A program made the translations under genes and the position numbers. Under the pieces are notes generated by a model. It had not been told where the DNA came from. It was given only the letters and a program-made list of their open reading frames with translations, and did not search any database. From Streptomyces sp. NRRL S-350 (GTDB taxonomy: Bacteria; Actinomycetota; Actinomycetes; Streptomycetales; Streptomycetaceae), in NCBI RefSeq assembly GCF_000719705.1, contig NZ_JOHO01000029.1, positions 19,976 through 83,975 on the forward strand: a stretch of DNA of 64,000 bases, given 5' to 3'. Below are positions 14,678 to 19,251 of this stretch, piece by piece (the stretch's first letter is position 1; every line of letters begins with the position of its first letter).

Positions 14678-15841
14678 TCAGCGCTTCACCGGGCCTCCCG
14701 CGGCACGCATCGACTTGGTGATCGCCTTCCACTTCTGCAACCGGGCCTTGGCCACCCGGGCGTCCGTGCGCGAGGCGATCCAGTCGTTCTCGCGCTGGAG
14801 CTTGAGGTAGCTCTCCATCCGGCGCTGCGGCAGGGTGCCGTCGGCCAGCGCCGACTGCACTGCGCAGCCTGGCTCCGTGTGGTGGCCGCAGTCGTGGAAG
14901 CGGCACTGCTCGGCCAGCTCGGCGATGTCGGCGAAGGCCAGGTCCACGCCCTCGCCACCGTAGAGGCCGACCTCGCGCAGCCCGGGGGTGTCGATCAGCA
15001 CGCCCCCGCCCGGCAGCGGGATCAGCTCGCGGGTGGTCGTGGTGTGGCGGCCCTTCTGGTCGACCGAGCGGGCCTCCTGGACGGTCATCACCTCGGCGCC
15101 GGCCAGCGCGTTGGTGAGGGTGGACTTGCCGACGCCGGACTGGCCGATGACCGCGGTGGTGCCGGGGGTGCAGGCGCGGAGCACGTCCATGCCCTCGCCC
15201 GTCTCGGCGCTCACCACGAGCACCGTGACTCCGGGCGCGACCGCCTCGACGTCGGCCCGGATGAAGTCGGCGTCGTCGACCAGGTCGGCCTTGGTCAGGA
15301 CGACCAGCGGTTCGGCGCCTGACTCCCAGGCCAGGGCGAGGAACCGCTCGATCCGTCCGAGGTCGGGATCGGCCGCCAGGGAGGCGGCGATCAGCACGGC
15401 GTCCACGTTGGCGGCCAGCACCTGGCCGTCGGAGCGCTTGCCCGCCACCTTGCGGATGATCGCGGTGGAGCGCGGCAGCAGCGCGGCGACGGCGGCCATC
15501 GGCTGGGCGTGGAGGTCCACGGCCGCCCAGTCGCCCGTGCACGGGCAGTTGATCATGTCGGCGTCGCCCACCGGCCTGGTGTCGAGCCGGACGGTGCGCG
15601 GCTCGCCCGTCTCCGGGTCGGCGATCACGGCGTCGCACTGTCCGCGGTCGACACGGAGGATCCGGGCCGGGAGCAGCCCGGCCTCGCCGAGCGGGGCGAA
15701 CCGCTCCGCGAGCTCGGACGTCCAGCCGTAGTCGGCCAGCGCGGAGCCGACAGCGGACTCGTCACCGCAGGAGGGGGACGGGGAAGAGGAAGCAGAGATG
15801 GAGGAAGCAGAGAACGACGAAACGGAGGCAGCGTTGAACAA
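14678..15841 (-). CDS. rsgA: Ribosome small-subunit GTPase RsgA, TTG start
   Basis: 387 residues. This circularly permuted GTPase releases assembly factors late in 30S maturation. Domains: Ser-rich head (1-30), OB-like domain, then permuted G motifs VLTKADL (G4), VIGQSGVGKST (G1), the T-rich switch HTTTTRE and LIDTPGL (G3), and a zinc site CRFHDCGHHTEPGC. The TTG at 15841 is the only possible upstream start, because a stop lies in frame ten codons earlier; GAAGGG lies 9 bases before it. The 185-nt leader contains an upstream ORF and two hairpins that would control access to this ribosome-binding site. Confidence 0.93.
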   Translation of the reverse strand: MFNAASVSSFSASSISASSSPSPSCGDESAVGSALADYGWTSELAERFAPLGEAGLLPARILRVDRGQCDAVIADPETGEPRTVRLDTRPVGDADMINCPCTGDWAAVDLHAQPMAAVAALLPRSTAIIRKVAGKRSDGQVLAANVDAVLIAASLAADPDLGRIERFLALAWESGAEPLVVLTKADLVDDADFIRADVEAVAPGVTVLVVSAETGEGMDVLRACTPGTTAVIGQSGVGKSTLTNALAGAEVMTVQEARSVDQKGRHTTTTRELIPLPGGGVLIDTPGLREVGLYGGEGVDLAFADIAELAEQCRFHDCGHHTEPGCAVQSALADGTLPQRRMESYLKLQRENDWIASRTDARVAKARLQKWKAITKSMRAAGGPVKR

Positions 15842-15849
15842 CGCGGTGG

Positions 15850-15984
15850 GCCCTTCGGGAGGAGATCATCCCGGCGGGCTGCAGCTGGCGCGAAGGGCTC
15901 AGCCGGCGGCCGGGAAAAGGAGGTGAACGCGAGTGCTGCCCTGGGCAGCTATCGGGGCGACAACGACCACGGGGTTCACCTCCT
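15850..15984 (-). promoter_or_regulatory. Predicted two-hairpin translational attenuator in the rsgA leader
   Basis: On the rsgA strand the leader contains, in order: the Shine-Dalgarno-like AGGAGGTGAAC (15984-15974), an upstream ORF, its reverse complement GTTCACCTCCT (15928-15918), the uORF stop, and then GCCCTTCG (15898-15891), which pairs exactly with CGAAGGGC (15857-15850), the rsgA ribosome-binding region. Between the first two arms lies a small hairpin, GCTGCC/GGCAGC. The arm plus the adjoining bases gives TCACCTCCTTT, identical to the 3' tail of bacterial 16S rRNA. Complementarity is directly visible; the attenuator function is inference. Confidence 0.65.
15899..15970 (-). CDS. Candidate 23-codon upstream ORF in the rsgA leader
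   Basis: GTG start 8 bases after AGGAGG on the rsgA strand, giving a peptide that begins VVVVAPIAAQG and ends LLFPAAG. Codons 15-18 (GTT CAC CTC CTT) are the anti-Shine-Dalgarno copy. The TGA abuts the hairpin arm that would sequester the rsgA ribosome-binding site, so a ribosome stopping here would free it. No homologue is known to me. It may act only by being translated. Confidence 0.45.
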   Translation of the reverse strand: MVVVAPIAAQGSTRVHLLFPAAG

Positions 15985-16033
15985 GCTCTCTACTCCTCGG
16001 GCGGCCCAACGGCCCCCGAACCGGACGCGTCAC

Positions 16034-16062
16034 ACGCTAGCCGACCGGTCCGACCCGGCCAA
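16034..16062 (-). promoter_or_regulatory. Predicted rsgA promoter
   Basis: On the minus strand TTGGCC (-35, 16062-16057) and TAGCGT (-10, 16039-16034) are separated by exactly 17 bases, close to the Streptomyces vegetative consensus TTGACR / TAGRRT. A start near 16027 gives a leader of about 185 nt containing the upstream ORF. Confidence 0.6.
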
Positions 16063-16226
16063 CCCATTTTTGACCTGGGCAAACGCGCACCCCGGGGCCC
16101 CAGGTGAGACCGGGCGGCACCCCCGGACATCCCGGGCAGCATCCTCCGGGCATTCCACCGCCGCCTCCGAAGGGCAGGACCAGGCCCGCCGGTGCCGGAG
16201 CCTCCGCAGGGGTCGCCAGGGACCGC

Positions 16227-17246
16227 CTAACCCCCGTACCGGTGCTTGAGGTTCGGGTCGTCCAGCCACCACGGCCGCATCCCCGCCTCCTCCTCTTCCG
16301 GCCGTCCCTGCGCCCGGGCCTCCGCGGCCGCCGCCTCGAACCGGGCGTCCAGCTCGGCGTCCACGGCCTTGATCTCCTCGCGCCCCTGCACCACCATCCG
16401 CCGCACCAGCGCGGCCAGGAACGGCAGCCCGACCAGGTCCCCCAGGACCCAGAACGCGTTGCCGCCCCAGGTCTGGTCCTGTACCAGGCTCGGCCCCCAC
16501 GGCCGCCCGAGCGCCACGTAGTAGTGCTCGGCGACGAGGTGGCCGCCGTAGATCAGCACGATCCCGAGCCCCGCGTCGAAGTTCACCTCGGCGAAGGTGA
16601 TGAACAGCCCGAGCAGGTGCGGGTACTCGTGCCCGACGGGGTCGATCTGCAGCCGCGGCCAGAAGTAGGCGAGGCCCAGCAGCACCAGCGCCAGGTGCAG
16701 CAGCACGTTCCCGAACGCGCTGGAGACCGACTCCTCGTACCAGGGCGTGAAGTAGAGCAGCCACGGCGGCGCCATCAGCAGCGCCGTCGAGACGGCCGGG
16801 AACATCAGCACCTTGGACGGGCGGCTGCGCAGCGCCCGCAGGATCCGCTCCCGCCGGGCCGGCGACGCGGCCCCGACGAGCAGCGAGACGGGCGCACCGA
16901 GCGCGAGCAGCAGCGGGACGACCATCAGCAGCAGCACGACCTGTACGGCCCGGTCGGTGAAGAGGATCCGGTCGTACACGCCGAGGCCGGAGCAGGTGCA
17001 CCAGATCCACAGCAGCAGTCCGCCGAGGAAGGCGGCGGTGCGGCTGGGCTGCCAGCGCTCGCCGCCGGACCGGTGGACGGTGCGCACCGCCGCCAGGTAC
17101 CAGGCGCCGAGCAGCACCGAGAGGGCGAGCACCAGCGGCTCGGCCGTCCAGGAGGTGGCCAGCGCGGACCAGTGCCACGGTGGTGGTCCGCTGTAGGCGA
17201 GCGTGGTGGCCACGCCGTCCACCGCGCCGCCCGCCGCGCCGTTCAT
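16227..17246 (-). CDS. CtaG-family cytochrome c oxidase assembly protein
   Basis: 339 residues with about nine membrane helices. The family pattern of caa3-type oxidase copper-assembly proteins is visible: PLVLALSVLLGAWYLAAVR, LLLWIWCTCSGLGVYDRILF, MVVPLLLALGAPVSLL, LLYFTPWYEESVSS and FITFAEVNFDAGLGIVLIYGG. A charged Glu-rich tail follows (EAAAAEARAQGRPEEEEAG). It probably helps insert copper into the oxidase at the plasma membrane. The ATG at 17246 is chosen because AGGTGGG precedes it and upstream codons are non-coding in character. Confidence 0.88.
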   Translation of the reverse strand: MNGAAGGAVDGVATTLAYSGPPPWHWSALATSWTAEPLVLALSVLLGAWYLAAVRTVHRSGGERWQPSRTAAFLGGLLLWIWCTCSGLGVYDRILFTDRAVQVVLLLMVVPLLLALGAPVSLLVGAASPARRERILRALRSRPSKVLMFPAVSTALLMAPPWLLYFTPWYEESVSSAFGNVLLHLALVLLGLAYFWPRLQIDPVGHEYPHLLGLFITFAEVNFDAGLGIVLIYGGHLVAEHYYVALGRPWGPSLVQDQTWGGNAFWVLGDLVGLPFLAALVRRMVVQGREEIKAVDAELDARFEAAAAEARAQGRPEEEEAGMRPWWLDDPNLKHRYGG

Positions 17247-17413
17247 CCGTCCGCCCACCTCGCTCGTACCCGCCGCCCGGGGCGGCGGACGTCGTCCGCA
17301 CCGCCGCCGTCGCAGAGCCGGCGGTCGCCGCGGCGGAGGCCGGGGCGCCCGGCCATGATGTCGCCGCGCCCCGGGCGGGCCGCACCCGGGCCCCGGCTCT
17401 ATACCCGAGCCTG

Positions 17414-17457
17414 GACAAAGCTTTGCCAACCCCCGACAAAGCTTTGCCAGGGCAAAG
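17414..17457. promoter_or_regulatory. Operator-like array of CAAAGCTTTG palindromes
   Basis: GACAAAGCTTTGCCA occurs twice (17414-17428 and 17435-17449), 21 bp apart or two DNA turns. Each copy contains the perfect palindrome CAAAGCTTTG. A third half-site GGCAAAG (17451-17457) forms an inverted repeat with the second copy. The array lies in the 298-bp gap between the divergent CtaG-like and SEDS genes, where I see nothing else. Confidence 0.6.
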
Positions 17458-17544
17458 TTCTGACCCCGGGGTCGCGCGGCCCGCAACCACGGCGACGGCC
17501 CGGACGTCTGGCAGGATGCCCGTCGGCGATACCCGCCACGTGGG

Positions 17545-19251
17545 GTGACAAGGGGACGACAAGAGGTGCGAAGCACTGCACGCGGCGACGGCCGGCGGCT
17601 GGCCGCGCGCCACCGCAACATCGAGCTGGGCCTGCTGGCGCTCGCGGTGGCCGTCTGTCTGGCGGGACACATCGACGCCGCTCTGGCGCTGACCGGCAGG
17701 ATGCCGCCGGGGCTGCTGGTGCACGCCCTGTCGCTGGGCGCGCTCGCCGGGGCGGCACACCTGGCGGTGCGCCGGTTCGCGCCGTACGCGGACCCGCTGA
17801 TCCTGCCGCTGGGCGTCTTCCTGACCGGCTTCGGGCTGGTGCTGCTGGACCGGCTGGACTTCAGCTACAAGGCCGCGCACGCCGCGAAGGGCGACTACCA
17901 GAAGCTCCCGGCCGCACCCTCCCAGTTGATGTGGGTGTTCATCTCGGTGGCGGCGGCGATCGCGCTGATCGTCCTGGTCAAGCACCACCGCTTCTTCCAG
18001 CGCTACGTGTACCTGCTGATGGCGGGCGCGCTGATCCTGCTGGCCGCGCCGGTGGCCTCGCCGGGCGACAGCTTCGGCGCCAAGCGCTGGATCCGGCTGT
18101 TCGGGCTCTCCTTCGAGCCGGACGAGTTCGTGAAGGTCGCGATCACGATCTTCTTCGCCGGCTACCTGATGGCCTCCCGGGACGCGCTCGCGCTGGCCGG
18201 CCGGAAGGTCTGGGGGATGACCCTGCCCCGAGGCCGGCACGCCGGGCCGGTGCTGGCGATCTGGGTGGTCAGCCTGCTGGTCCTGATCTTCGAGCGCGAC
18301 CTGGGCACCTCGCTGATCTTCTTCGGCGTCTTCATCGTGATGCTGTACGTGGCGACCGAGCGCACCAGCTGGGTGGTGCTCGGCCTGCTGATGGCCGTCG
18401 GCGGCGCGGCGGTGGTCGGCACCGTGGAGCCGCACGTGCACGGCCGCGTCGAGGCCTGGCTGCACCCGCTCGACTACTACAAGCCGGTGCACGACAAGGC
18501 GATCTCCGAGCAGCCCGCCGAAGCCCTGTTCAGCCTCGGCACCGGGCACATGACCGGGACCGGCCTGGGCTCCGGCCGGCCCTGGCTGATCGGCTTCGCC
18601 GGGCGCAGCGACTTCATCTTCACCACCATCGGCGAGGAGCTGGGCCTCGCCGGGGTGACGGCCGTGCTGCTGGTCTACGTGCTGCTGATCCAGCGCGGCC
18701 TGCGCACCGCCGTCGGCCTGACCGACCCGTTCGGCAAGCTGCTCGCCACCGGCCTGTCGGCGGCCCTGGCCCTGCAGATCTTCGTGGTCGTCGGCGGCGT
18801 GAGCGGGCTGGTCCCGCTGACCGGCAAGGCGCTGCCGTTCCTGGCGGCCGGTGGTTCGTCACTGATGGCGAACTGGCTGATGGTCGCGCTGCTGATCAAG
18901 CTGAGCGACTCCTCCGGGCGCACCGCCCTGGACCCGGTCCAGACGTCCCCCGAACCCCTCCCGGTCCAGGCCCGCCCGGCCGGGCGGAGCCCGCAGGGCG
19001 ACCCGGCTGCGGCCGCCCCTGCGGCCCCGGACCCCGCCGCACCGGCCTCCGCCGACCCGTCCACCGCCGACCCCTCCGCCGCGACCGAGCTGCACCCCGT
19101 GATCGGCCGGACCCCGAACGACCGATCCTCGGACGGCCGGCCGCCGAACGGCCCGAGCCCGTACGACCGGACCGCGAACGACCGGAGCCCGGCCGGTCGG
19201 CAGCCCACCGGACCGCAGTACGGCCACCCCACGCACCCGGCCACCACCTGA
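17545..19251 (+). CDS. FtsW/RodA/SpoVE (SEDS) peptidoglycan glycosyltransferase
   Basis: 568 residues: about 12 membrane helices to residue 450, then a disordered tail of about 115 residues rich in Ala, Pro and repeated NDRS/DGR elements. SEDS marks are AKRWIRLFGLSFEPDEFVK, the catalytic-Asp block FERDLGTSLIFFG, FAGRSDFIFTTIGEELG and PLTGKALPFLAAGGSSL. It polymerises lipid II with a partner PBP in the membrane. No PBP gene is adjacent, which is unusual. GTG at 17545 or 17566 may be the start. The promoter gap carries palindromic operator-like repeats. Confidence 0.9.
   Translation: MTRGRQEVRSTARGDGRRLAARHRNIELGLLALAVAVCLAGHIDAALALTGRMPPGLLVHALSLGALAGAAHLAVRRFAPYADPLILPLGVFLTGFGLVLLDRLDFSYKAAHAAKGDYQKLPAAPSQLMWVFISVAAAIALIVLVKHHRFFQRYVYLLMAGALILLAAPVASPGDSFGAKRWIRLFGLSFEPDEFVKVAITIFFAGYLMASRDALALAGRKVWGMTLPRGRHAGPVLAIWVVSLLVLIFERDLGTSLIFFGVFIVMLYVATERTSWVVLGLLMAVGGAAVVGTVEPHVHGRVEAWLHPLDYYKPVHDKAISEQPAEALFSLGTGHMTGTGLGSGRPWLIGFAGRSDFIFTTIGEELGLAGVTAVLLVYVLLIQRGLRTAVGLTDPFGKLLATGLSAALALQIFVVVGGVSGLVPLTGKALPFLAAGGSSLMANWLMVALLIKLSDSSGRTALDPVQTSPEPLPVQARPAGRSPQGDPAAAAPAAPDPAAPASADPSTADPSAATELHPVIGRTPNDRSSDGRPPNGPSPYDRTANDRSPAGRQPTGPQYGHPTHPATT

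Follow-up and report, generated by a model that had tools for sequence, protein, structure and literature searches.

On balance we favour the view that the leader of an rsgA gene on the minus strand of the window (the whole 64,000-nucleotide stretch of DNA analysed) works as a translational attenuator that depends on the position of the ribosome on an upstream ORF (uORF), and that the gene it controls is an antibiotic-stress paralog. rsgA is a ribosome-assembly gene, and its product, RsgA, is a GTPase that acts on the 30S subunit. According to the folding models, ribosomes that finish the uORF would open a stem round its stop codon (P2), a competing stem over the rsgA ribosome-binding site (P3) would then close, and rsgA would be OFF. 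With the uORF empty, or with a ribosome stalled early in it, P2 would stand, P3 would be prevented and rsgA would go up. A translation inhibitor, starvation or poor initiation could each serve as the trigger, and the translational rise would add to WhiB7-driven transcription. The initial annotation of this DNA had proposed that a ribosome terminating at the uORF turns rsgA on, and it named the right element but, as modelling suggests, probably with the direction of the switch reversed. The attenuator as we read it predicts that a disabled uORF gives higher, not lower, rsgA output.

The product of the window gene is an RsgA-type GTPase, with a TIGR00157 score over the cut-off. Another rsgA is found in the same genome on contig C88, with 34% identity to the window gene, and a third, weak match (E 1e-4) lies on contig C5. 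The C88 gene is directly 3' of an ORF recognised by eye as 5-enolpyruvylshikimate-3-phosphate synthase, aroA; in S. coelicolor SCO5211 likewise adjoins aroA. The window gene was rejected as the housekeeping rsgA because the housekeeping copy sits beside the aroA-like gene on C88. In a study of WblC, the RsgA/EngC paralogs SCO6149 and SCO5211 are among the pairs whose first-named member is WblC-activated (PMC7157823). By exclusion we infer orthology with SCO6149, of which the window gene is the likely counterpart, and the gene is probably a second rsgA copy, for antibiotic stress. If it is the stress paralog, as this indicates, the signal is more likely to be stress from antibiotics or on translation.

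The promoter carries the same indication. It lies where the initial annotation had placed it, and its arrangement, AAAAAT-GGG-TTGGCC-N17-TAGCGT, departs from the published WblC arrangement in one base only, the first of the box, the consensus being GAAAWY 3 nt upstream of the -35 (PMC7157823). Of 70 leaders from the window's genus 17 have an exact GAAAWY before a -35, as do 15 of 98 others (0.04 and 0.17 in shuffles), and a box with a free first base followed by the -35 occurs in 43 of 70 and 26 of 98 (shuffles 0.05 and 0.14). A loose pattern of AT-box, -35 and -10 is present in 65 of the 69 genus leaders that are long enough and in 63 of 98 others, the mean of shuffles being 0.1 (100 shuffles) and 0.31, respectively. 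Thirty-five of the 98 non-genus leaders are without even the loose promoter, and most leaders with an overlapping uORF are among them. A generic sigma-70 scan did not call the window promoter. These matches suggest a WhiB7-like promoter, of which WblC would be the putative activator. Upstream of the promoter, on the same strand, is an ORF for a CtaG-like membrane protein (16227-17672, minus strand), which scores 27 bits against caa3_CtaG, where the curated cut-off is 279.

All of the elements described in the initial annotation are present on the minus strand and correctly placed, and they are collected in Table 1 together with those that emerged from folding. A hairpin formed by GCTGCCCAGGGCAGC, considered as a conserved feature of the uORF, was downgraded to a candidate, as the window MFE is without it. 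Rfam gave no gathering-level match in the leader, and none to E 5 inside it; the sole weak match nearby is to sul1 (E 1.8), at 16092-16155 on the other strand. Elsewhere in the window, 5_ureB_sRNA (RF02514) matches 354-638 on the minus strand with 40.1 bits, the gathering score being 40.

Table 1. Features of the rsgA leader in the window, in transcript order
Feature	Position	Strand	Basis
AT-rich box AAAAAT, WhiB7/WblC-like, 3 nt 5' of -35	16066..16071	-	sequence; 5/6 consensus bases match
-35 TTGGCC	16057..16062	-	sequence
-10 TAGCGT, spacer 17 nt	16034..16039	-	sequence
uORF Shine-Dalgarno (SD) arm AGGAGGTGAAC, 5' arm of stem 1	15974..15984	-	11 bp paired in free MFE
uORF, GTG start, TGA stop, 23 codons plus stop	15899..15970	-	sequence
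Hairpin GTTGTCG/CGATAGC within uORF	15948..15964	-	in window MFE
Alternative GCTGCCCAGGGCAGC hairpin, candidate	15935-15949	-	absent from MFE; GCTGCC core by eye
Anti-SD arm GTTCACCTCCT, 3' arm of stem 1, exact SD complement	15918..15928	-	
TCACCTCCTTT, 16S-rRNA-tail-like	15916-15926	-	sequence
P2 5' arm TCCCGGCCGCCGGCTG, last uORF codons plus stop	15900..15915	-	window MFE; positional equivalent of P2 in alignment A2
GCCCTTCG, proposed 5' arm of stem 2, directly after TGA	15891..15898	-	
P2 3' arm CAGCTGCAGCCCGCCGGGA	15869..15887	-	window MFE
P3 5' arm GCCCGCCGGGA, common to P2	15869..15879	-	forms with uORF end masked
P3 3' arm TCCCGAAGGGC, includes rsgA SD GAAGGG (15851-15856)	15850..15860	-	folding
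CGAAGGGC at rsgA ribosome-binding site, partner in stem 2	15850-15857	-	sequence
rsgA TTG start	15839-15841	-	sequence
Small hairpin GCGTT/AACGC round TTG start	15831..15844	-	free and masked folds
rsgA, probable stress paralog	14678..15841	-	TTG start; TIGR00157 above cut-off

The uORF is kept across related bacteria. The gene is present in all 70 genomes searched from the window's genus, and in all 70 leaders a short, SD-led ORF with a TGA stop lies ahead of it; the SD is GGAGG in 69, and GCGAGGTG in the remaining one (L023). A family sample of 150 genomes, 39 of them from the window's genus, has the gene in 143. Sixty of the 104 matching family genomes outside the genus, together with 49 named loci, supplied 109 non-genus leaders, of which 100 could be anchored and 9 could not; an SD-led uORF candidate is found in 98 of the 100, as the best SD pick without a shuffle control. 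A phylum search added 40 further Actinomycetota genomes, and in 19 of them a short ORF led by an SD lies within 300 nt, compared with 3.3 expected from shuffles. For folding, two genus leaders without a recognised rsgA start (L047 and L064) were dropped, so that 68 were used, and 26 of the 100 anchored leaders fell outside the set owing to uORF overlap, no recognised start or no uORF. The folding set retains one 8-codon ORF (L178) that is probably a wrong uORF pick. Because the leaders are related by descent and include a few duplicates (the duplicate-like pairs are L121/L184, both members of which are in the folding set, L124/L201 and L142/L191), these counts cannot be taken as independent.

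Within the folding set, 37 of 68 genus leaders and 46 of 74 others have a uORF of 23 codons, the consensus of the 46 being MTVVAMGAARIQKFIVSTSVVSG. Its start, frame and stop persist while the peptide varies freely: mismatch at the three codon positions of the 23-codon uORFs is 0.34/0.33/0.21 in the 46 non-genus and 0.21/0.30/0.26 in the 37 genus sequences, where high GC also limits third positions. A uORF maintained as a selected peptide was rejected, as mismatches are not concentrated at third codon positions, and it appears that the transit of the ribosome, rather than the peptide, is what counts. Downstream, the rsgA site is a weak one: 67 of the 68 genus leaders have GAAGGG there, and the start is TTG in 62 and GTG in 6; elsewhere TTG is used in 69 of 74, which brings the overall figure to 131 of 142.

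One counterpoint to an attenuator comes from the 18 of 100 anchored non-genus leaders in which the uORF overlaps rsgA out of frame, and which need another arrangement. The Streptomyces leaders L106, L107, L110, L111, L114, L115, L120, L135, L136 and L138 have a uORF that reads past the rsgA start in another frame. Several Streptomyces leaders with the out-of-frame overlap have, by eye, a CACCTCC- or CCTCC-like stretch beside the rsgA site, and the overlap with such a stretch can be read as a second architecture of the same uORF. A 14-codon SD-led uORF also lies ahead of the same gene on two contigs labelled as a Devosia MAG (L149 and L150).

The SD of the uORF is disposed to be hidden. The native window uORF contains a 10-nt SD complement, which none of 50 dinucleotide shuffles does, so that the complement exceeds chance; its likeness to the 16S tail adds nothing independent, since any sequence complementary to a perfect SD will resemble that tail. 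Of the 18 close relatives 17 have a complement of at least 7 nt, against 8 of the 50 remaining genus leaders and 21 of 74 leaders elsewhere. Over the 50 other genus leaders the longest complement is not enriched (5.34 vs 5.13 nt shuffled), and outside the genus it is mildly so (5.43 vs 4.68 nt). Opening the uORF SD costs more than the shuffle mean in 16 of 18 close, 38 of 50 other genus and 60 of 74 remaining leaders. Hiding of the uORF SD thus stands, on these estimates, as a general tendency, and the exact stem 1 as local to the window's clade. The initial annotation is in this respect borne out for a conserved uORF (70 of 70 genus leaders) with a strong SD that is hidden by folding. In L149 and L150 the uORF SD, GGAGGCG, has its complement, CGCCTTC/CGCCTCC, within the uORF; inspected by eye, this is a possible co-change of stem 1.

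Stem 2, the pairing of GCCCTTCG with the rsgA site that was to have been the controlling hairpin, is rare and energetically costly. Of the 68 genus leaders 12 carry a 7-8 nt complement to the rsgA site, as do only 9 of the 18 closest, though that site hardly varies, and forcing the 8-bp stem left 11 tested leaders 4.8-12.5 kcal/mol above the optimum. Stem 2 was therefore rejected as a conserved element.

The folds contain another stem, P2, in which the last uORF codons and the stop can pair with the spacer. Its widespread form is GTGGYC-n-CCGGC with GCCGGGGCCRC; in the window's clade TCCCGGC..CGGCTG pairs with CAGCTG..GCCGGGA, another sequence at the same place, and by eye remote leaders (e.g. 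L141, L214, L218 and L220) have a stem at this place made from different sequence again. Alignment A2, with 68 of 83 references (11 genus and 57 other leaders, none from the window's clade, the 15 most divergent being left out), lets RNAalifold recover 8 of the 10 P2 pairs unaided. P2 cells are paired in 96.3% of cases, vs 26-55% in controls shifted by 1-3 columns; at the outermost position U-A, C-G and U-G occur in 38, 12 and 12 of the 68 leaders; and the covariation score is higher than in all 500 shuffles. Because only 2 of the 10 pairs are changed on both sides, a number equalled by 61 of 500 shuffles, covariation is suggestive, not strong. Across the folding set the P2 duplex is more stable than its shuffled counterparts are on average in 124 of 142 leaders; the 18 exceptions comprise 9 from an 11-member clade with 34-35-codon uORFs, 2 other genus leaders and 7 from outside the genus.

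Competition between P2 and P3 follows from the arrangement of the window leader, where both stems use the same GCCCGCCGGGA, so that only one can form fully. In the window fold with the uORF end masked, P3 pairs GCCCGCCGGGA with TCCCGAAGGGC and hides the rsgA SD, and a loose pattern, for which there is no shuffle control, picks out a P3-like pair of arms in 63 of 68 genus leaders. The energies are nearest-neighbour estimates for secondary structure without pseudoknots, kinetics or cotranscriptional order. When the end of the uORF is masked, the expected number of pairs between spacer and rsgA SD rises from 0.06 to 3.99 (medians) in the window's clade, with an increase in 18 of 18; over the genus 37 of 68 leaders rise and 4 fall, and among the others 33 of 74 rise and 9 fall. 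Mutually exclusive structures, one of which covers the rsgA site, are thus found in silico, clearly in the window's clade and more weakly elsewhere, which supports the earlier proposal of a leader capable of switching structure.

The sign of the predicted switch is given by the effect of a ribosome on the cost of opening the rsgA site. A footprint on the last uORF codon adds 4.5 kcal/mol in the window's clade, where 16 of 18 leaders lie above +0.5 and 1 lies below -0.5 kcal/mol. The cost rises in 44 of 68 genus leaders and falls in 6, and it rises in 42 and falls in 11 of 73 non-genus leaders (the summary takes in 73 of the 74), while shuffled leaders are symmetric (28% vs 29%; 25% vs 24%). 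Leaders that are not of this clade show a modest shift, with medians of 1.3 and 0.8 kcal/mol. A ribosome on codons 1-9 moves the medians by less than 0.2 kcal/mol. The sign of the median shift is the same whether the footprint is 25, 31 or 37 nt long and at either temperature (37 or 28 C), and an accessibility run with another footprint made the SD less accessible in 40 of 68 genus leaders and more so in 12. If the SD is considered by itself, the effect is reversed in 19 of 74 leaders from outside the genus at a 31-nt footprint, and at the weakest setting 28 of 74 rise and 24 fall. The claim that a terminating ribosome exposes rsgA is accordingly not supported in its direction by these models, the site becoming more accessible in only 1 of the close relatives and 6 of the genus leaders. 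The change is a graded one in partner and stability, not a clean exposure, since about 4 of the 6 SD bases stay paired to something in both states and the free-leader cost of opening the site equals that of shuffles (medians 10.0 vs 10.3; 9.1 vs 9.0 kcal/mol). In the free fold of the window, part of the rsgA SD pairs with the 5' leader.

These results bear unequally on the ways in which such a leader might act. A uORF and its structure could simply hold rsgA translation low with no regulated switch, as the prevalence of the TTG start, an SD that is paired in both states and a site-opening cost like that of shuffles would allow, but constant damping of this kind is hard to square with a ribosome effect whose asymmetry is absent in shuffles, and with the swap of SD partners, and we hold it to be doubtful. 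The scheme of the initial annotation, in which the terminating ribosome opens the GCCCTTCG:CGAAGGGC hairpin to turn rsgA on and the hidden uORF SD ties rsgA to free 30S, is very unlikely: against the presence of all its elements, the strong stem 1 in 17 of 18 near relatives and the 6 of 68 genus and 11 of 73 other leaders whose site is more accessible with a ribosome at the uORF end must be set the scarcity and cost of stem 2 (judged on secondary structure only) and the lowered accessibility of the site in most leaders. Most improbable is transcription attenuation in the style of whiB7/wblC, with a leader terminator governed by the uORF. It would share both regulon and logic with those genes, and T-rich codons follow the uORF start in several Streptomyces leaders (by eye), but no terminator-like site was found in 15500-16250 of the window leader, the one leader scanned, and an intrinsic terminator there was rejected for that reason.

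Sensing of 30S survives only with its sign inverted, in that stem 1 may close when 30S loads slowly, which would keep the uORF silent and increase RsgA. As a sensor of 30S availability, or of initiation rate, the leader would let the anti-SD capture the uORF SD when 30S arrives slowly, whereupon P2 would form and rsgA would go up. The costlier opening of the uORF SD in all three groups of leaders, the complement of at least 7 nt in 17 of 18 and the mild enrichment outside the genus speak for such a sensor; against this, the 50 other genus leaders show no enrichment of the exact anti-SD, and the promoter class indicates drug stress, so that we regard it as unlikely. Carried further, the leader would gauge the speed of ribosome loading, an anti-SD that mimics the 16S tail capturing the uORF SD unless 30S gets there first, in a homeostatic loop, independent of drugs, that would link initiation-competent 30S with RsgA. 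Slow loading would leave the uORF silent, P2 would form and RsgA would be raised, the uORF being read as transit and not as peptide. Such a loop seems to us rather unlikely, and we return to the attenuator set out at the beginning in comparing the leader with known systems.

Attenuators of the erm type combine a uORF, mutually exclusive hairpins and a sequestered downstream ribosome-binding site with drug-dependent arrest peptides. The rsgA leader shares with them the uORF and, as predicted, the mutually exclusive hairpins and the hidden downstream site; unlike them, it has a uORF peptide without visible selection, and its free fold is the predicted ON state. The whiB7/wblC leader of actinomycetes, described in a review (PMC11550727), has a short uORF that, when finished, means OFF and, when disturbed, ON; the rsgA leader would resemble it in this logic, in its antibiotic signal and probably in its regulon. 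It differs in its output, which in whiB7/wblC is a Rho-independent terminator and for rsgA is predicted to be the ribosome-binding site. The tiaA and are5sc leaders of ARE-ABCF genes in S. coelicolor are likewise Streptomyces uORF leaders, on ribosome-rescue genes, one of them a WblC target, and are drug-induced through ribosome-mediated attenuation; they differ in the genes concerned, in their very short peptides (MLV, MVGDDDISG) and in a terminator/anti-terminator model (PMC12421871). HflXr of Listeria is reported to be another resistance paralog, of a ribosome-splitting factor, which is a different factor (PMC6310831).

A literature search, with most subscription papers outside its reach, returned no paper on an rsgA uORF leader. 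The leader is apparently a widely kept and seemingly undescribed element on a WhiB7-type ribosome-assembly paralog of antibiotic-producing bacteria. If the favoured attenuator is real, one gene of the antibiotic-stress regulon would be gated a second time, at translation, and a second, translational gating in this regulon has been raised as a possibility from proteomics (PMC12421871).

A minor feature of the opposite strand arises from the same sequence. The plus strand at 15933-16040 contains GGAGGTGAACGCGAGTG, a 35-codon antisense ORF (VLPWAAIGATTTTGFTSCSLLLGRPNGPRTGRVTR) that has an SD because stem 1 is palindromic. This SD is formed by the anti-SD arm, whose strength is confined to the window's clade.
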